Source: Ruegeria sp. THAF57
GTDB lineage: Bacteria > Pseudomonadota > Alphaproteobacteria > Rhodobacterales > Rhodobacteraceae
DNA: 64,000 nucleotides
Assembly (NCBI RefSeq): GCF_903914075.1
Contig: NZ_CAIWNQ010000005.1
Coordinates: 124,001 to 188,000 of the forward strand
Reading direction: 5' to 3'
Positions 2,038 through 10,798 of the stretch are shown here, one piece after another. How positions within the stretch are numbered: position 1 is the stretch's first letter; each line of letters begins with the position of its first letter. The notes beneath the pieces are model-generated. The model was not told where the DNA came from, did no database searches, and worked only from the letters and a program-made list of their open reading frames with translations. Made by a program: the position numbers and the translations under genes.

Positions 2038-2889
2038 ATGGCAGCCTTGCCCCCATTGAACGCGCTCCGCGCTTTTGAAGCTGCGGCCCGGCACTTGAAT
2101 TTCCGGCTTGCAGCAGAGGAGCTTGGCGTCACTCAGGGTGCCGTGGCGCAACAGGTCCGTGGGCTTGAGGCCCGACTGGCGGAAAAGCTGTTTGAACGTC
2201 TGCCACGCGGTTTGGCGCTGACCGAGGCGGGTCGTCGTTTTCATGCGCCACTGCGCCGGGCGTTCAGGTTGATTGAAGACGCCGTGGATGAATTGTCCAG
2301 CGATCAGCAGGTTGTTGTTTCAGTGACACCAAGCTTTGCTTCAAAATGGCTGGTGCCGCGTTTGCCGGACCTGACAGACAGGCACCCCGACATCTCGGTC
2401 AAAATTGATGCGCGGGAACGGCTGGCGGATTTCAAGGGTGACGGCGTGGACATCGCCGTGCGGCAGGGGCGAGCGCCGTTTGGGGCAGGCCTGACATCAA
2501 CCCCCCTGTTTTCAAATGCATTCGTCCCGGTCTGCAGCCCCAAATTGGCAAGGCAGATCACTAAGCCGGAAGACCTTTGGGACCACGTTCTTCTGAACGA
2601 TACGCATGGGTTGTGGCCGCTGTTCCTTGAACGCCTTGGGCTGGATGGTAAGCCTCGGGTGATGAGCTTCAGCCAGACGAGTTTGGCCATTGACGCGGCC
2701 ACCTCGGGGCAGGGGATTGCGCTGGCACATGAACCTCTGGTCGCGACGGAACTTGCATCAGGACGGCTTGAACGGCCCCTGCCGGATGTTCTGATCGAAG
2801 ACCTTGGGTTCCATGTCGTCAGCCCGGCAAAACCCCGGCAGCCCGAATTGGTTGCGTTGATTAAGAACTGGCTGCTGTCTCAATCGTGA
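2038..2889 (+). CDS. LysR-family transcriptional regulator (GcvA-like)
   Basis: A 283-residue LysR regulator. The N-terminal winged helix-turn-helix reads LNALRAFEAAARHLNF and then LGVTQGAVAQQVRGLE. A periplasmic-binding-protein-like effector domain follows. The opening LPPLNALRAFEAAARH is typical of the GcvA-type branch. I prefer ATG 2038, with AGGA a few bases upstream, over the TTG at 1984, which would add 18 unusual residues and run through the operator palindrome. The likely target is the divergent SDR at 1233-1934. Its 3' end overlaps the convergent LysR gene by 10 bases. The effector is unknown. Confidence 0.9.
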   Translation: MAALPPLNALRAFEAAARHLNFRLAAEELGVTQGAVAQQVRGLEARLAEKLFERLPRGLALTEAGRRFHAPLRRAFRLIEDAVDELSSDQQVVVSVTPSFASKWLVPRLPDLTDRHPDISVKIDARERLADFKGDGVDIAVRQGRAPFGAGLTSTPLFSNAFVPVCSPKLARQITKPEDLWDHVLLNDTHGLWPLFLERLGLDGKPRVMSFSQTSLAIDAATSGQGIALAHEPLVATELASGRLERPLPDVLIEDLGFHVVSPAKPRQPELVALIKNWLLSQS

Positions 2890-3782
2890 AGCGTGCCCGC
2901 TATGCGTTCTATTCGTCCCCGCAACCAGCGATGCGCGGGGTCATTGGCAAACCTCTGATGCCAGACCATGTAGATTGAAACCGGTTCACAGTGAAACGGC
3001 AACGGCGCGCAATCCAGCGCGGCGAGGGGACCGTGCCTCATCAAGGCCGTGTCGGTTGAAATCAGGTCGCTTCCTTTCACGAAGGATGGGATGGCGTTGA
3101 AATGGGGTAAGGTGACGGTGGCTGGCCTGATCTGGTTTTGGTCCACACCCCGCATGACCGCGCGCGAACTGCGCCCGTCCGTGAACCGCACCTCGACATG
3201 TTCGGTTTCGCAATATGCTTTCCAATCGGTCGGCGGCTGGCGGCGGGTTCCGTCGTAATAGATCATCAACGGGCTGCTGAGGACACGCTTTTGAAAGATG
3301 TCCGGCCCGTCCGGTGGCAATGGGGACAGCATCAACTGACACCGGTCGCTGCGCAGCAGGTCCGGATCCGGCACGCCCGAGGGAATAAAGCCAAGCCGCA
3401 GTCTGATACCTTCGGCGCGGACGGTGCGGAGCAGTTTGGGGAAGATCAACTCTCGCGGCATGTCGTTTGTCGCGATTTGAACGTGCAATTCCTCGGATAG
3501 CGGATCGAACGGGCGATCGTCTGTCAGCGCCCGCAATCCATCAAGCACGCCTTGCACTGGTTCTTTCAGGGACAAGGCGCGTTCGGTCGGTATCAGGCCT
3601 TGACCTGATCGAACGAACAAAGGGTCGCCCAGAACCTGCCTCAGCTTGGCAAGCGTATGGCTGATCGCCGATTGCGTAACGCCCATTCGGTCCGCTGCCT
3701 TTGAAACCGAATTCTCCTCGAGTATCGTCAAAAAGACGCGCAGAACTTTGCCATCAAGGTCAGTGAAATCAATTTTGTTCAT
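2880..3782 (-). CDS. LysR-family regulator, probable regulator of the dehalogenase
   Basis: A 300-residue LysR protein. The helix-turn-helix is at about residues 20-45 (SVSKAADRMGVTQSAISHTL), and LRQVLGDPLFVRSG follows. The effector domain is of the NodD/PBP2 type. It starts at ATG 3782 and is divergent from the large reductive dehalogenase gene across only 76 bases, so it is the best candidate for sensing the halogenated substrate or product. Regulation of rdhA is inferred from position. The 10-base overlap with the preceding convergent regulator gene leaves no room for a terminator between them. Confidence 0.9.
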   Translation of the reverse strand: MNKIDFTDLDGKVLRVFLTILEENSVSKAADRMGVTQSAISHTLAKLRQVLGDPLFVRSGQGLIPTERALSLKEPVQGVLDGLRALTDDRPFDPLSEELHVQIATNDMPRELIFPKLLRTVRAEGIRLRLGFIPSGVPDPDLLRSDRCQLMLSPLPPDGPDIFQKRVLSSPLMIYYDGTRRQPPTDWKAYCETEHVEVRFTDGRSSRAVMRGVDQNQIRPATVTLPHFNAIPSFVKGSDLISTDTALMRHGPLAALDCAPLPFHCEPVSIYMVWHQRFANDPAHRWLRGRIERIAGTLHD

Positions 3783-3795
3783 GTCGCTTATGATA

Positions 3796-3820
3796 ATTCA
3801 TGAATGGATCGGCGGTCCAT
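3796..3820. promoter_or_regulatory. Palindromes between LysR and dehalogenase genes
   Basis: Two adjoining dyads lie in the 76-base divergent promoter. One is the perfect 10-base palindrome ATTCATGAAT (3796-3805). The other is ATGGA-N7-TCCAT (3804-3820). Either could be the operator of the LysR protein encoded at 2880-3782. No cobalamin riboswitch is visible here. Confidence 0.4.
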
Positions 3821-3858
3821 GACGATTTAGATGACGTTGAGCAAACAGGAGGCACGCG

Positions 3859-6800
3859 ATGGGGATCCGCTTTTTTTCGGACAGGAACAGGCCGGTCCAT
3901 ATGGGGTCGTACCCGTTGGAACGGCTGGCTCGGCAGACTGCGTTGCCTGATCTGTCTGGGGTCCGTCAGATGCCGGTTCTCAGTTTCCAGCGCCCCAATC
4001 AGCCCGAAAGTATCGTGAATGCGATGGGTGAGTTTCAGGCGATGATGGATGCGATCCGCGACGGGTTCGTGAACCCGGTGCCGTCCGAAATACCCCCGGA
4101 CCCGACAGCGCGTGCCAACCACCTGAAGGCGTTTGGATATTTCAACGATGCATCCATGATGGGCTGCGGTCCTCTACCCGCCGAAGCGTTGCTGTCCGAA
4201 CCCCGCCGCAACCCCGATATTGACCGTCTGGCCCATGCGTTGAAGACGCGCCAGACAAAGACGCTGGCGTCCGGCATTGATCTGATCATGGCCGATTTGA
4301 AGGAAAGCATGGAGGCCGAGCCGCGCCCCATGGACCGTCATCGTTACGCGATTGTCTTTCTGTACGAATACAACCGCGACCCAAAACCGGAAGAACCCGG
4401 GTCCGACTGGATCATGAACGCGCAGGACCACCGCGCATGTCTGCTGGCCACCGAGAACGCGGTGGTCATCGCCAATTACATCCGCATTCTGGGGTTTGAC
4501 GCGCGTGCGCACACTGTCATGTCAACCGAAGTTGATCTGGGAAAGCTCGCCGTCGCGGCGGGTCTGTGTTCGGTCGAGGACGGAGAGGTCGTTGCCCCAT
4601 GGCTGGGCAAACGGTTCGGGCTGGCTGCCGTGACGACCGAGATGGAGATCGCGTATGATCAGCCATTGGCGCCGATGGCCCAGCAGCCGTGGTTTCACAC
4701 CCAAGGCCCCGCTTGGTGGCTGGGTACTGGGTTTGCCAAGAACGCGCTGAACCGCGACGCTTATGCCAAGCGGCGCTATGTCGATGGGGCGCATCCGTTT
4801 GAAAAACTCAAACGAGTCGACGCACCCACCACTTATATTGACGAAGAAAACGTCGCCCGCGTCCCCAAGCGCGCTGACATGTTTGCCCGTGCGCAATTCG
4901 GCGATATGGGCAAAAATCTGCAGGACGCGGCGAAAGGCGGCTACTACGTTCGCAAAGCGGCCCCCAGTTTCGCGCAACGCCGTGCGCTGGGCGCGTTTGT
5001 GTTGTTGCAGGATGGGGAAAGCGCGGACACCCCTCCACCAACCGATACCGCACACAATGCCGCGAATATCAAGGCGGCCACGTATTTTCTGGGCGTTGAT
5101 GCGGTGGGCCTTAGCCGCTGCCCCGAATGGGCGTGGTACTCCCATGATGCGACGGGCGAGGAGATCAATCCGCCCCACGACCAAGCCATCAGCATGATCA
5201 TCGACCAGGGCTATGAAACGATGGAGGGCGCCAGCGGCGATGACTGGATCAGTGTCGCTCAGTCGATGCGCGCCTATCTGCGGTTCTCGCTTCTGGGTGG
5301 GGTGATCGCGCAGCAGATCCGTAACCTCGGGTACAAGGCCCGCGCGCATACGGTAATGGATGGTGAGGTGCTGCAACCGCCCCTTCTGTTGCTGTCCGGG
5401 TTGGGTGAGGTCAGCCGGATCGGAGAGGTGATCCTGAATCCCTACCTTGGGCCGCGCCTGAAATCCGGTGCGGTGACGACGGATATGCCGATGGTCCATG
5501 ACAAACCCATAGACTTCGGCCTGCAAACCTTTTGCGAGAGCTGCAACAAATGCGCCCGCGAATGTCCCTCGGGCGCAATCACCGCTGGACCGAAGCTGAT
5601 GTTCAACGGCTATGAAATCTGGAAATCCGACAGCCAGAAATGTGCCACCTACCGCGTGACCACGCCGGGCGGTGCGATGTGCGGGCGGTGCATGAAGACC
5701 TGCCCATGGAACCTTGAGGGGATTTTCAAAGAGCGCCCCTTCCGATGGGCCGCGATGAATATTCCCCAGGCCGCGCCAGCGTTGGCGAAACTGGATGACG
5801 CTGTCGGCAATGGCGGCCTGAACGACATCAAGAAATGGTGGTGGGACATCGAATTGCAATCGGACGGCGCGTACCGCCCGACTGAGCATCCGTTGAACCG
5901 GCGTGACCTGCAAACCGATCTTGATCTGAAATACGAAGACCAGACGCTTGCGGTTTACCCCGCCTACCTTGCACCGCATCCATGGCCCTATCCCTTTGCC
6001 ATGGACCGTGAGGCCGGGATCGCCGCGTATCAGGCAATGGTGAGCGCAGATGAATACAAGACCCGCAAAGCTGCTGGAGATATGTCGGTGATCCACCGAT
6101 ACGCGATCGCGGGCGATGCTCCGGTGATGCGGGTTGAGCTGACGAAGGTTGGTAAGATGACGACGGATGTGACCAAGTACGAATTCTCGACGCTGGACGG
6201 GTCGCCCTTGCCGGAATGGACCGCTGGCGCGCATCTGGACGTTCTGGTCGCGCCGGAATTCCTGCGGCAATATACCATGTCCGGTAATCCGGCGGACCGA
6301 ATGACATATCAGATCGGTGTACTGCGCGAGGATGACGGGCGCGGCGGCTCGGTCCTGCTGCATCGTATCTTTAGCGAAGGGCGCAAGGTCTTCATCTCGA
6401 AGCCCATCAACCATTTCGAACTGGACGAGGGCGCCACCAAGACGTTTCTGATGGGCGGCGGGATCGGCATCACGCCGATGATCGCCTTTGCTCATCGTCT
6501 GCACGCCTTGGGCAAACCGTTCGAGCTGCACTATTCCGCCAGCACCCGCGCCGGGGCCGGGTATCTGCAGGATCTGGCGACGATGCCGTGGGCGGATCGC
6601 GTCCACTATCATTTCTCGGACGAGGGCACGCGCGCTGATCTGGATGCGATCCTGTCGGCTTATCAGACCGGCTGGCATGTCTATACCTGCGGCCCGGATC
6701 GGTTCATGGACGGGGTGATGCAGGCGGCTGAGCGTCAGGGCTTTCCCGATGAGGCGCGGCATCTGGAGTATTTCTCAGTCCCCGAACAACCCGATTACGA

Positions 6801-7071
6801 GAATCACGAATTCACCCTGCGGCTGGCCAAGTCGGGCCGCGATCTGGCCGTGCCTGCCGACAAGGACGCCGCGCAGGTGTTGAATGAGGCGGGGATACAC
6901 GTGGATGTGAAATGCGCTGACGGCATCTGCGGGGTCTGTAAGTGCGGCGTGATCTCGGGCGAGGTCGAACACCGCGATTTCGTTTTGTCCAACAAGCAGC
7001 GCGAGGGGTCGATCATCCTTTGCCAAAGCCGAGCTGCGCAAAAAGATGGCGTGATCGAGATCGACCTCTGA
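3859..7071 (+). CDS. rdhA: Self-sufficient reductive dehalogenase: RdhA fused to flavin/[2Fe-2S] reductase
   Basis: Predicted cobalamin and iron-sulphur enzyme that removes halogen from organohalides using NAD(P)H electrons carried by its own C-terminal domain. Residues 1 to about 550 form the corrinoid-binding region. It looks internally duplicated: ARAHTVM followed by VTT(E/D)M occurs near 215 and again near 493. Two [4Fe-4S] motifs follow: C559/C562/C565/C569 and C595/C608/C611/C615. From about 740 there is a ferredoxin-reductase-like module with an RQYTMS flavin motif (803-808) and GGGIGITP (866-873). A plant-type [2Fe-2S] site (C1019, C1024, C1027, C1055) ends the protein. There is no Tat signal or membrane anchor, so it should be cytoplasmic and non-respiratory, like catabolic RdhA fusions such as BhbA. 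AGGAGG six bases before the ATG supports the start. No rdhB is present. Confidence 0.92.
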   Translation: MGIRFFSDRNRPVHMGSYPLERLARQTALPDLSGVRQMPVLSFQRPNQPESIVNAMGEFQAMMDAIRDGFVNPVPSEIPPDPTARANHLKAFGYFNDASMMGCGPLPAEALLSEPRRNPDIDRLAHALKTRQTKTLASGIDLIMADLKESMEAEPRPMDRHRYAIVFLYEYNRDPKPEEPGSDWIMNAQDHRACLLATENAVVIANYIRILGFDARAHTVMSTEVDLGKLAVAAGLCSVEDGEVVAPWLGKRFGLAAVTTEMEIAYDQPLAPMAQQPWFHTQGPAWWLGTGFAKNALNRDAYAKRRYVDGAHPFEKLKRVDAPTTYIDEENVARVPKRADMFARAQFGDMGKNLQDAAKGGYYVRKAAPSFAQRRALGAFVLLQDGESADTPPPTDTAHNAANIKAATYFLGVDAVGLSRCPEWAWYSHDATGEEINPPHDQAISMIIDQGYETMEGASGDDWISVAQSMRAYLRFSLLGGVIAQQIRNLGYKARAHTVMDGEVLQPPLLLLSGLGEVSRIGEVILNPYLGPRLKSGAVTTDMPMVHDKPIDFGLQTFCESCNKCARECPSGAITAGPKLMFNGYEIWKSDSQKCATYRVTTPGGAMCGRCMKTCPWNLEGIFKERPFRWAAMNIPQAAPALAKLDDAVGNGGLNDIKKWWWDIELQSDGAYRPTEHPLNRRDLQTDLDLKYEDQTLAVYPAYLAPHPWPYPFAMDREAGIAAYQAMVSADEYKTRKAAGDMSVIHRYAIAGDAPVMRVELTKVGKMTTDVTKYEFSTLDGSPLPEWTAGAHLDVLVAPEFLRQYTMSGNPADRMTYQIGVLREDDGRGGSVLLHRIFSEGRKVFISKPINHFELDEGATKTFLMGGGIGITPMIAFAHRLHALGKPFELHYSASTRAGAGYLQDLATMPWADRVHYHFSDEGTRADLDAILSAYQTGWHVYTCGPDRFMDGVMQAAERQGFPDEARHLEYFSVPEQPDYENHEFTLRLAKSGRDLAVPADKDAAQVLNEAGIHVDVKCADGICGVCKCGVISGEVEHRDFVLSNKQREGSIILCQSRAAQKDGVIEIDL

Positions 7072-7200: not shown

Positions 7201-8067
7201 ATGGATTATCACAGCCCCGCCAGTTTCGCCGAGGCGTCGGCTCTGGCTGCAAACGCAACGGGTGTCACCCGCTTTCTGGCCGGTGGAACGGATGTTCTGG
7301 TGCAGCTGCGCTCGGAACTGGTCACACCCGACACGCTGATCGACATCAAGAAAATCGACGGTGTCAGCGACATAACCCGCAACGCTGATGGAAGCTGGAC
7401 GCTGGGCGTTGCCGCCACCGGTGCCGAGATGAGCGAACACCCCGACCTAGGCCGCGACTGGCCCGGTGTGGTTGAGGCGATGGACCTGATCGGATCCACG
7501 CAGGTGCAGGGCCGCGCGACGCTGACCGGCAACTTGTGCAATGGTTCTCCGGCGGCGGATTCGGTACCTGCGATGGTTGCGGCAGGCGTGAGTGTGACGG
7601 TGACCGGCCCCGAGGGTGAACGCGAGGTGGCCGTCGAAGACATCCCCACCGGCCCCGGCAAAACGTCACTGGCCAAGGGCGAGGTTGTCTCAGCCGTGAA
7701 TATCCCCGTGCGCGGGGACAACGCGGGCGACGCCTATCTGCGGTTCATTCCGCGCACCGAGATGGACATCGCCGTGGTTGGCGTAGGTGTTAGCCTGCGT
7801 CTGGACGGCGACACCGTGACCGAGGCGCGTGTATCCCTGGGCGCGGTCGCCCCCACCGTCCTGCTGGTTGAAGATTGCGCCAAGGCCATCATCGGTAGCA
7901 CTCTGGACGATACCGCGCTGGACGCGCTGGCGGCGGCGGCCTCTGCGGCCTGTAACCCGATTGACGATAAACGCGGCACGATCGCATTCCGCACCGAGGT
8001 CGCTGGCGTTCTGGCCAAGCGTGCCGCGAAAATCGCCTATGCCCGCGCGAAAGGAGAGAAAGCATGA
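7201..8067 (+). CDS. Molybdenum hydroxylase, FAD-binding medium subunit (CoxM/XdhB-like)
   Basis: FAD subunit of a xanthine-oxidase-family hydroxylase; it passes electrons from the iron-sulphur subunit to an acceptor. The FAD-binding motif AGGTDVLVQLR lies near residue 30, the second FAD-contact segment (GRATLTGNLCNGSPAADSVP) near 105, and the CO-dehydrogenase flavoprotein C-terminal domain in the last third. Length (288) is standard and there is no extra [4Fe-4S] insertion as in 4-hydroxybenzoyl-CoA reductase. I chose ATG 7201, with GAGGT six bases upstream, over GTG 7168. Its stop overlaps the next start (ATGA), so it is translationally coupled to the small subunit. Confidence 0.92.
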   Translation: MDYHSPASFAEASALAANATGVTRFLAGGTDVLVQLRSELVTPDTLIDIKKIDGVSDITRNADGSWTLGVAATGAEMSEHPDLGRDWPGVVEAMDLIGSTQVQGRATLTGNLCNGSPAADSVPAMVAAGVSVTVTGPEGEREVAVEDIPTGPGKTSLAKGEVVSAVNIPVRGDNAGDAYLRFIPRTEMDIAVVGVGVSLRLDGDTVTEARVSLGAVAPTVLLVEDCAKAIIGSTLDDTALDALAAAASAACNPIDDKRGTIAFRTEVAGVLAKRAAKIAYARAKGEKA

Positions 8068-8543
8068 GCAAGCTCCATGTATCCACCACCGTAAACGGGG
8101 ATGAGGTCGATTTTCTGTGCGACCCCCGTGAAACCCTGCTGGACTGTCTGCGCGACAAGCTGAACCTGACCGGCGCGAAAGAGGGCTGCGGCACCGGCGA
8201 TTGCGGTGCGTGTTCCGTCACAGTCGATGGCCGTTTGGTCTGCTCGTGCCTGATGTTGGGTGCCGAGGCAGACGGTAAGCAGATCGAAACTGTCGAAGGT
8301 CTCGCAGATGGTGACGTGTTGCACCCGTTGCAGCAGAAGTTCATCGACCATGCCGCCCTGCAATGCGGCATCTGCACACCGGGCATTCTGGTGGCGGCCA
8401 AGTCGCTGCTGGAAAAGAACCCCAACCCGACCGAGGAAGAAACCCGGTATTGGCTGGCAGGCAACCTGTGCCGCTGCACCGGTTATGACAAGATCATTCG
8501 CGCCGTGATGGAAACGGCGGAAGAATTGCGGGAGGCGTCGTAA
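8064..8543 (+). CDS. Molybdenum hydroxylase, [2Fe-2S] small subunit (CoxS-like)
   Basis: A 159-residue electron-transfer subunit with two [2Fe-2S] clusters. The N-terminal plant-ferredoxin-type site is at EGCGTGDCGAC with a further Cys in LVCSC. The C-terminal helical site is QCGICTPG followed by NLCRCTGYDKI. This arrangement defines the CoxS/XdhC-type small subunit. It is cytoplasmic and has no Tat signal. It overlaps the genes on both sides by 4 bases and 1 base, so the three subunits are almost certainly made together. Confidence 0.95.
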   Translation: MSKLHVSTTVNGDEVDFLCDPRETLLDCLRDKLNLTGAKEGCGTGDCGACSVTVDGRLVCSCLMLGAEADGKQIETVEGLADGDVLHPLQQKFIDHAALQCGICTPGILVAAKSLLEKNPNPTEEETRYWLAGNLCRCTGYDKIIRAVMETAEELREAS

Positions 8544-10798
8544 TGGCTCTGGACGATCGAAAGACAGAATTTACCTTTGTCGGCACCCGCCCGAACCGCC
8601 CAGACGGGCTGGACAAGGTCACAGGCCGTGCCAAGTTTGGAGCGGACATGTCAGCCCCTGGGATGCTGCACGGCGCGATCCTGCGCTCGCCCCATGCCCA
8701 TGCACGGATCGTGAAGATCGACGCGTCCAAGGCCGAGGCGTTGAAGGATGTCAAAGCCGTCGTCACCCGCGCCGATTTCGCCGAAGTGCCGTTCATGCCC
8801 GGTCTGGAAGGTGAGTTCTGGAATGTGCTGGAAAACGTCATGGCGGGTGAAAAGGCGCTGTATGACGGGCACGCAGTTGCGGCTGTCGCGGCGACTTCGG
8901 CTCTGGCCGCACGCGACGCGCTGAAACTGATCGAGGTCGAGTACGAGGTTCTGCCCCACGTCACTGACGTGGACAAGGCGATGGCCTCCGACGCGCCGGT
9001 CATCCGCGAAGGGGCTGCGGACTATTCCGTGCCTGAGGGGATGCATCCCAACGTCGTGCGTTATCACGAAAGCGGCCATGGCGATGTCGAGGCCGGGTTC
9101 GCCGAGGCCGATCTGGTGATCGAAGACAGTTTCGTCACCGAAGCCACCCATCAGGGCTATATCGAACCGCATGCCTGTCTGGGGATGCTGGGCAATGACG
9201 GCAAGGGTGAGCTGTGGTGTACCACCCAAGGTCACTGGATCGCGCAAAAAACTTGTGCGGCGCTTTTGGGCATCGAAACCTCGCAATTGCGCGTCACCGC
9301 ATCCGAGATCGGAGGCGGTTTCGGCGGCAAGACAACGGTATTCATCGAACCTGTCGCGCTAGCACTCAGCCGCAAAGCCAACCGGCCCGTTAAAGTTGTG
9401 ATGACCCGATCCGAGGTGTTCCGGGCGACCGGTCCGACCGCCTCGGCGTCGATGGACATCAAAATCGGGATGAAGAAGGACGGCACAATCTCTGCCGCGC
9501 AGGGTGTATTCCGCTTGCAGGGTGGGGCATTCCCGGGCGCGCCCGGCGACATGACCGCCATGTGCGCCTTTGCGCCTTACAACCTGACCAACGTCAAGCA
9601 GATCGGCTATGACGTCATGGCCAACCGCCCAAAACAGGCGGCCTATCGCGCGCCGGGTGCGCCAATGGGTGCGTTCGCAGTCGAGTCGGTGATTGACGAG
9701 CTGTGCAAGAAGCTGGGTCTGGACCCAGTCGATGTACGCCTGAAAAACGCGGCCCATGAAGGGTCCAAGGCCAGCTATGGCCCGCGCTATCAGCGCATAG
9801 GTCTTGTTGAAACGCTGGAAGCGGCCAAGGCGCATCCGCATTATTCGGCCCCGCTGAAACCGGGACAGGGGCGTGGGATTTCCTGCGGGTTCTGGTTCAA
9901 CCACGGCGGCGAGACAAGCGTGTCGCTGGCCCTGTCCGAGGACGGCTCGGCGCAGTTGATGGTGGGGACGCCCGATATTGGGGGTTCGCGCGCGTCGATG
10001 GCGCTGATGGCGGCCGAAGTGCTGGGTATCCCTTACGAAAACATCCGTGTGACAATCGCGGATACGGCGACGCTGGGCTATAACGATGTCAGCCACGGTT
10101 CACGCGTGACCTATGCCAGCGGTCTGGCGACCATCAAGGCAGCCAGACATGCAGTTGAGAAACTAAGCGAACGCGCGGCGGCCAAGTGGGGCATCCCTGT
10201 GGACGCGGTAAAATGGGAAAACGGTTGCGCTGTCCCGTCCGGCCCCAATGCCGGAGATTTCGATCCGATGCCACTGGCTGATATCACGGCCGATATGGGC
10301 AGCACCGGGGGGCCGATCTCGGGCCATTTTGAGGCGACTCCCGAAGGTGCAGGTGTATCCTTCGGCACGCATATTGTGGATGCCGAAGTTGACCCGGAAA
10401 CGGGTAAGACCAGCATCACCCGCTATACGGTCATTCAGGACGCGGGCAAGGCTATCCACCCGACCTATGTGGAAGGCCAGTACCAAGGCGGCGCTGCACA
10501 AGGGATCGGTTGGGCGCTGAACGAGGAATATATCTATGGCGAGGATGGTCGGCTGCAAAACTCGATCTTCCTTGACTATCGCATCCCCGTCGCCAGTGAC
10601 CTGCCCATGATCGACACGGTGATTGTCGAAGTCCCCAACCCTGGCCACCCGTTCGGCGTGCGCGGAGTGGGCGAAACAGGAATCGTGCCGCCTCTGGCCG
10701 CTATCGCAAATGCGGTATCGCAAGCGGCAGGCGTACGAATGAAGCAACTGCCGATGTCCCCGCCGCGCATTCTGGCCGCGCTTAGGGACAATGGTTGA
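8543..10798 (+). CDS. Molybdenum hydroxylase, molybdopterin-binding large subunit
   Basis: Catalytic subunit (751 residues) of a xanthine-dehydrogenase-superfamily enzyme, which hydroxylates an aldehyde or N-heteroaromatic carbon using water. The molybdopterin-binding segment GGGFGGKT is near residue 260. The loop AYRAPG (367-372) replaces the AYXCSFR loop of true CO dehydrogenase, so it is not a form I CODH. The catalytic glutamate is Glu711 in GVGETG. The start overlaps the small-subunit stop (TAATG). The real substrate cannot be read from sequence. Proximity to the dehalogenase may mean aromatic or heteroaromatic compounds, but this is inference. Confidence 0.92.
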   Translation: MALDDRKTEFTFVGTRPNRPDGLDKVTGRAKFGADMSAPGMLHGAILRSPHAHARIVKIDASKAEALKDVKAVVTRADFAEVPFMPGLEGEFWNVLENVMAGEKALYDGHAVAAVAATSALAARDALKLIEVEYEVLPHVTDVDKAMASDAPVIREGAADYSVPEGMHPNVVRYHESGHGDVEAGFAEADLVIEDSFVTEATHQGYIEPHACLGMLGNDGKGELWCTTQGHWIAQKTCAALLGIETSQLRVTASEIGGGFGGKTTVFIEPVALALSRKANRPVKVVMTRSEVFRATGPTASASMDIKIGMKKDGTISAAQGVFRLQGGAFPGAPGDMTAMCAFAPYNLTNVKQIGYDVMANRPKQAAYRAPGAPMGAFAVESVIDELCKKLGLDPVDVRLKNAAHEGSKASYGPRYQRIGLVETLEAAKAHPHYSAPLKPGQGRGISCGFWFNHGGETSVSLALSEDGSAQLMVGTPDIGGSRASMALMAAEVLGIPYENIRVTIADTATLGYNDVSHGSRVTYASGLATIKAARHAVEKLSERAAAKWGIPVDAVKWENGCAVPSGPNAGDFDPMPLADITADMGSTGGPISGHFEATPEGAGVSFGTHIVDAEVDPETGKTSITRYTVIQDAGKAIHPTYVEGQYQGGAAQGIGWALNEEYIYGEDGRLQNSIFLDYRIPVASDLPMIDTVIVEVPNPGHPFGVRGVGETGIVPPLAAIANAVSQAAGVRMKQLPMSPPRILAALRDNG

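Follow-up and report, generated by a model that had tools for sequence, protein, structure and literature searches.

The 64,000-nucleotide stretch of Ruegeria sp. THAF57 DNA analysed here (the window) carries at positions 3859–7071 of the forward strand an rdhA-reductase fusion gene (rdhA hereafter), which encodes 1070 amino acids from an ATG start without an internal stop and is preceded by a good ribosome-binding site, AGGAGG at 3847–3852, read directly from the sequence. It lies between a divergent LysR-type gene (2880–3782, reverse strand) and a run of xdhB/xdhC/xdhA-like molybdenum hydroxylase genes (7201–10798, forward strand), all assigned by family match. Related loci were collected and the best 80 of 188 relatives were kept. 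The rdhA frame is not a chance open reading frame, since the matched frame is free of stops in all 80 kept relatives and 53 of the 54 genomes surveyed in the genus match the gene. An antisense open frame of 746 codons also runs inside rdhA (window positions 4522–6762, reverse strand) and is most likely a mechanical by-product of codon usage.

The rdhA product matched the NCBIfam reductive dehalogenase model TIGR02486 at 195.9 bits, above the cut-off of 160.35, and a sequence search of the PDB placed NpRdhA of Nitratireductor pacificus first (E 7.2e-157). The active corrinoid-binding core occupies residues 440–551 (positions 5176–5511, forward strand), with S469, M470, Y473 and K535, and is followed by two [4Fe-4S] sites at residues 559–615 (5533–5703, forward strand; cysteines 559/562/565/569 and 595/608/611/615), where R599, the equivalent of NpRdhA R552, is enclosed and where Pfam recognised Fer4_7/Fer4_16 (residues 559–618). 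Towards the C-terminus lie a flavin and NAD(P)H module of the phthalate-dioxygenase-reductase type (residues 757–973; 6127–6777, forward strand), with RQYT at 803, GGGIGITP at 866 and CGPDR at 944, and a plant-type [2Fe-2S] domain (residues 984–1067; 6808–7059, forward strand) with cysteines 1019/1024/1027/1055, which Pfam recognised as Fer2 at 991–1059. Phthalate dioxygenase reductase (2PIA) matched residues 757–1066 in the PDB search (E 7.4e-55), and this match together with the four cysteines identifies the fused C-terminal flavin/NAD(P)H/[2Fe-2S] reductase used as a criterion of the self-sufficient class. The preliminary description had read a single polypeptide with a corrinoid domain, cluster sites at C559–C569 and C595–C615, a GGGIGITP reductase and a [2Fe-2S] site, and the family models, the 2PIA match and the cysteines all agree with that reading.

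Internal alignment of the protein revealed an N-terminal second copy of the RdhA core at residues 161–270 (4339–4668, forward strand), with 46 of 110 positions identical to residues 440–551 and a score of 167, where 500 shuffles gave at most 61. By eye, C194 and G254 occupy the places of the catalytic Tyr and Lys in this copy, which makes it the counterpart of the half that is described as vestigial in NpRdhA. All six substrate and catalytic residues of NpRdhA are retained in alignment (F342, S469, M470, Y473, K535 and R599, with NpRdhA numbering fixed by the K488Q variant entry 6ZY0), as are all eight [4Fe-4S] cysteines. Along with the four [2Fe-2S] cysteines, these six residues and the eight [4Fe-4S] cysteines do not vary in any of the 81 sequences (the window and 80 loci). 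The loss of the catalytic Tyr/Lys pair, named earlier as a possible refutation, was looked for in the alignment, and Y473 and K535 were found in every sequence. In addition to its cysteines, the reductase module retains R803, the GGGIGITP loop and CG at 944–945; Y805 is Tyr in 78 sequences and Phe in three, and residue 806 is Thr in the window copy and Ser in the other 80. The domain architecture, the identity of the residues, their conservation and the gene linkage were all read directly from the sequences, with residue counts covering all 81 sequences and the alignment behind the structure model covering 43 of them. The resulting AlphaFold model (mean pLDDT 73.9, pTM 0.76) again retrieved NpRdhA first in a fold search, with a TM score of 0.86–0.87 over the length of NpRdhA, followed by CYP116B-type enzymes and phthalate dioxygenase reductase. 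This comparison with known RdhA structures, proposed in the preliminary description, supports family membership at the level of a predicted fold and not pocket geometry, as the stretches forming the pocket (452–467, 517–526 and 589–601) were modelled with pLDDT <50.

Several other identities were considered. A respiratory reductive dehalogenase was rejected, as inspection found no twin arginine in the first 40 residues and neither adjacent gene is an rdhB, both matching instead the LysR and molybdenum-hydroxylase (xdh-like) families; the absence of a Tat signal and of rdhB noted in the preliminary description is upheld for the first 40 residues and the adjacent genes. A decayed gene copy was likewise rejected on the lack of stops and the retention of all key residues. 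Assignment as the epoxyqueuosine reductase QueG was rejected at 25.8 bits against a cut-off of 200, and that the product is some other class III cobalamin enzyme of the epoxyqueuosine-reductase-like kind rather than a dehalogenase is highly improbable: the weak QueG match is expected of a shared fold, whereas the reductive dehalogenase cut-off was passed and every substrate residue of NpRdhA is present. In its sequence, the product displays every feature tested for the self-sufficient (RdhA-PDOR fusion) catabolic reductive dehalogenases. We therefore consider it very probably a self-sufficient reductive dehalogenase of the catabolic type, located in the cytosol and probably tolerant of oxygen, with a predicted NADPH-driven chemistry on bromo- and iodophenols.

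Comparison with known systems places the window copy close to several described enzymes. BhbA (WP_015585978), encoded on plasmid pBHB of Comamonas sp. 7D-2, is 50% identical over its full length (539 of 1074 columns) and has the same domains, but its gene is differently set, lying on a conjugative plasmid beside protocatechuate dioxygenase genes (its neighbours being ligA and genes for the beta subunit of an extradiol dioxygenase and for a transporter protein) with insertion sequences near. NpRdhA (PDB 4RAS, 6ZXU) shares 225 of 499 aligned residues with query residues 160 to 663 (38–39% identity in the fold alignment) and has the same fold and active-site residues, but lacks the fused reductase module present in the window product. 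The domain order is also that of JtRdhA from the moderate thermophile Jhaorihella thermophila (WP_104007082), a likeness drawn from the description in the available part of PMC10463259 and not from sequence: no Tat signal, a duplicated core, a fused phthalate-dioxygenase-reductase module and the same Y/K/R residues. JtRdhA belongs to the Rhodobacterales, as do the nearest named relatives of the window copy, and was characterised biochemically in 2023 as a dehalogenase that is driven by NADPH and tolerates oxygen: it turns over bromo- and iodophenols, is only inhibited by chlorophenols and is active in air (available text of PMC10463259). In contrast, the roseobacter debrominase Ros_A3X954 of Roseobacter sp. 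MED193, which also lacks a Tat signal, is described in the accessible portion of PMC13101508 as oxygen-sensitive, and its Fe-S motif positions (283–345) mark it as shorter and as belonging to another clade. As an enzyme of the same order has already been characterised, according to the available part of PMC10463259, where a Ruegeria pomeroyi RdhA is also named in a tree legend, the interpretation is not new, and rdhA adds no new kind of enzyme to a type already described.

The nearest named relatives among the best 80 of 188 are Ruegeria-group records with 82–91% identity. This group comprises 39 of the 80 loci by record title and identity (L005–L038, L045, L058, L063, L078 and L081), including records titled Silicibacter, strain KLH11 and a MAG. 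Within the genus, 53 of 54 genomes (including that of the window) hold full-length or near full-length matches at E <= 1e-100; G048 has none and G037 has three. The host assembly (4.28 Mb, 99.99% complete) contains a single full-length rdhA match and three further matches to the reductase or ferredoxin parts only. Across the family, 152 of 394 genomes (a sample of approximately one per genus) match at the same threshold, mostly at full length among the matches listed, with a few partial (G151, G154 and G392 among them) and G321 holding a stop. The preliminary description was therefore right on identity and too generous on rarity: kinship with BhbA stands and few such fusions have been studied by laboratory assay, yet they are common in genomes. 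A probable NADPH-driven debrominase is thus a near-constant gene of a common marine genus and is matched in 151 of 393 sampled genera of the family, more than one third, which argues for a routine role in the turnover of natural brominated phenols. Nine plasmid records also matched, eight covering at least 80% of the query and the ninth the reductase part only. Ruegeria sp. HKCCD8929 (loci L029 and L071; possibly the same organism as G037) carries a second, diverged rdhA fusion (L071) that is 72% identical to the window copy and lies downstream of TctA and CoA-transferase genes.

The divergent LysR gene, which the preliminary description took to be rdhA's own, is present and is kept beside rdhA in 37 of 39 Ruegeria-group loci (missing in L030 and L081), with the two coding matches beginning 74–78 bases apart. 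The association is limited to this group, as none of the 41 other loci held a match over more than half the length of the window LysR. It probably controls rdhA in response to a ligand that we suppose to be phenolic. The intergenic region contains the palindrome ATTCATGAAT (3796–3805), whose TCATGA core recurs within 130 bp upstream of rdhA in 26 of the 37 LysR-bearing loci (11 lack it) and in none of the two Ruegeria-group loci without LysR or the 41 loci outside the group. We regard ATTCATGAAT as a candidate LysR operator only, a lead from sequence and not proof, because the motif was picked after viewing the alignment and the loci are related. Other groups have other regulators: L039, L057, L060 and L070 share a divergent gene of one cluster (LuxR-type in L039, the one member scanned), and a MarR-type gene lies near rdhA in Jannaschia. 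The rdhA enzyme thus appears as a self-contained module under different control.

Neighbouring genes were taken from a mechanical ORF call, with a Pfam scan on 36 of them (40 proteins, some from the Ruegeria group), and the sulfatase, FAA-hydrolase and LuxR clusters were named from one scanned member each. The xdh-like genes, the first of which is taken from ATG 7201 (GTG 7168 being an alternative start), are neighbours that probably do not belong to the rdhA system. An xdhB gene lies within 400 bp downstream of rdhA in 35 of the 39 Ruegeria-group loci, whereas none of the 41 remaining loci has it there, and a general functional tie between rdhA and the xdh-like genes was rejected on these counts. 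Outside Ruegeria, the neighbours mostly vary by locus (TRAP DctP/DctM in L083, TctA in L071, a transposase in L069 and unrelated genes), which fits a single-gene module.

Cofactors, NADPH use, oxygen tolerance, substrate class and mechanism were taken from characterised relatives, and the residue match indicates that the reaction scheme given in the available part of PMC10463259 applies to the rdhA product. On this scheme, NADPH would deliver a hydride to the flavin in the reductase module, from which electrons would pass singly through the [2Fe-2S] cluster and then through both [4Fe-4S] clusters before reaching the cobalt of the corrinoid. R599 would hold the ortho-halogenated phenolate while Tyr473, with Lys535, would donate a proton as the C-Br or C-I bond breaks, and the phenol produced would then enter aromatic catabolism. 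The host genome encodes the cobaltochelatase CobN, which is consistent with its own synthesis of cobalamin. The substrates are likely to be natural marine bromo- or iodophenols, judging from the relatives.

A catabolic setting is suggested by relatives that lie near dioxygenase or ring genes, namely BhbA and a Nitratireductor plasmid homologue of about 50% identity with an aldehyde dehydrogenase gene just upstream and pobA and dioxygenase genes within a few kb. It is possible, if on balance somewhat doubtful, that the main role is instead detoxification of toxic algal or sponge bromophenols and not growth on them. No ring-degradation genes were recognised directly beside rdhA in the window, and a single gene with its own regulator and no downstream pathway nearby would suit such a role, as would its near-universal presence in the genus and the fact that its steady neighbours in the 39 Ruegeria-group loci are LysR (37) and xdh-like genes (35) and not ring-cleavage genes. 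However, the catabolic neighbours of BhbA and the plasmid relative speak against it, as does an FAA-hydrolase-family gene that precedes rdhA, in the same orientation, by 64–136 bp in nine Shimia-type loci (PF01557 in L040; a tenth cluster member lies 6.5 kb from rdhA). Furthermore, JtRdhA enables E. coli W to grow on a bromophenol, as reported in the accessible text of PMC10463259.

A rather unlikely variant on the substrate side is that the enzyme naturally acts on halogenated derivatives of tyrosine (catabolites of bromo- or iodotyrosine), whose products enter the homogentisate route. The homogentisate dioxygenase HmgA is encoded in the host genome, where no 4-hydroxybenzoate hydroxylase (PobA) scored above the cut-off (best 36.1 against 538.7 bits), a result that also tells against the main catabolic reading, and a red alga yields dibromotyrosine-type compounds alongside bromophenols (available part of PMC9322897). 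Set against this, no tyrosine-catabolism gene was recognised beside rdhA in the window, and HmgA lies on another contig (C7).

Five relatives outside Ruegeria hint at one natural source of bromophenols. In each, rdhA is preceded in the same orientation by a sulfatase-family gene of one cluster (63–80% mutual identity; PF00884 in L061), at L061:6175-7830, L067:6284-7990, L073:6273-8000, L075:6337-8001 and L077:333-1976, separated from rdhA by 170, 10, 0, -1 and 808 bp, respectively. In L077, a short-chain dehydrogenase gene stands between the sulfatase and rdhA, and an FAD_binding_3 gene follows rdhA. By eye, at least six genomes (G116, G425, G189, G431, G303 and G228) hold a sulfatase homologue within about 6 kb of rdhA, on the opposite strand in G189, where simple arithmetic for genomes of ~4 Mb gives a chance expectation well under one; the six are not fully independent, because some may be organisms of the five loci that supplied the sulfatase query. 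As 184 of the 394 family genomes have a sulfatase homologue, mere co-occurrence is uninformative and only close linkage counts, and the sulfatase was rejected as a general genome-level partner of rdhA. Judged by title or abstract, none of the full-text literature matches listed reports the linkage, which is not proof of its absence from print; the available part of PMC6129605 reports anaerobic genomes that contain both sulfatases and RdhA and states no linkage. Sulfated bromophenols, such as lanosol disulfate, have been reported from a red alga (PMC9322897, as far as accessible), and the upstream sulfatase hints that sulfate esters of algal bromophenols could be one natural origin of the substrate. 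With low confidence, we speculate that self-sufficient RdhA is a module of the marine organobromine cycle that is widespread and often equipped with a regulator. In some relatives it would act on algal bromophenol sulfate esters in a line of two or three enzymes, from sulfatase through RdhA to a flavin hydroxylase (L077), with the window copy standing alone for the same chemistry and an unlinked sulfatase as its possible partner. If true, self-sufficient RdhA would serve the natural marine organobromine cycle and not pollutant breakdown. Gene linkages in relatives offer testable guesses at native substrates. The unlinked sulfatase homologue of the host (G000:C9) is 61% identical.
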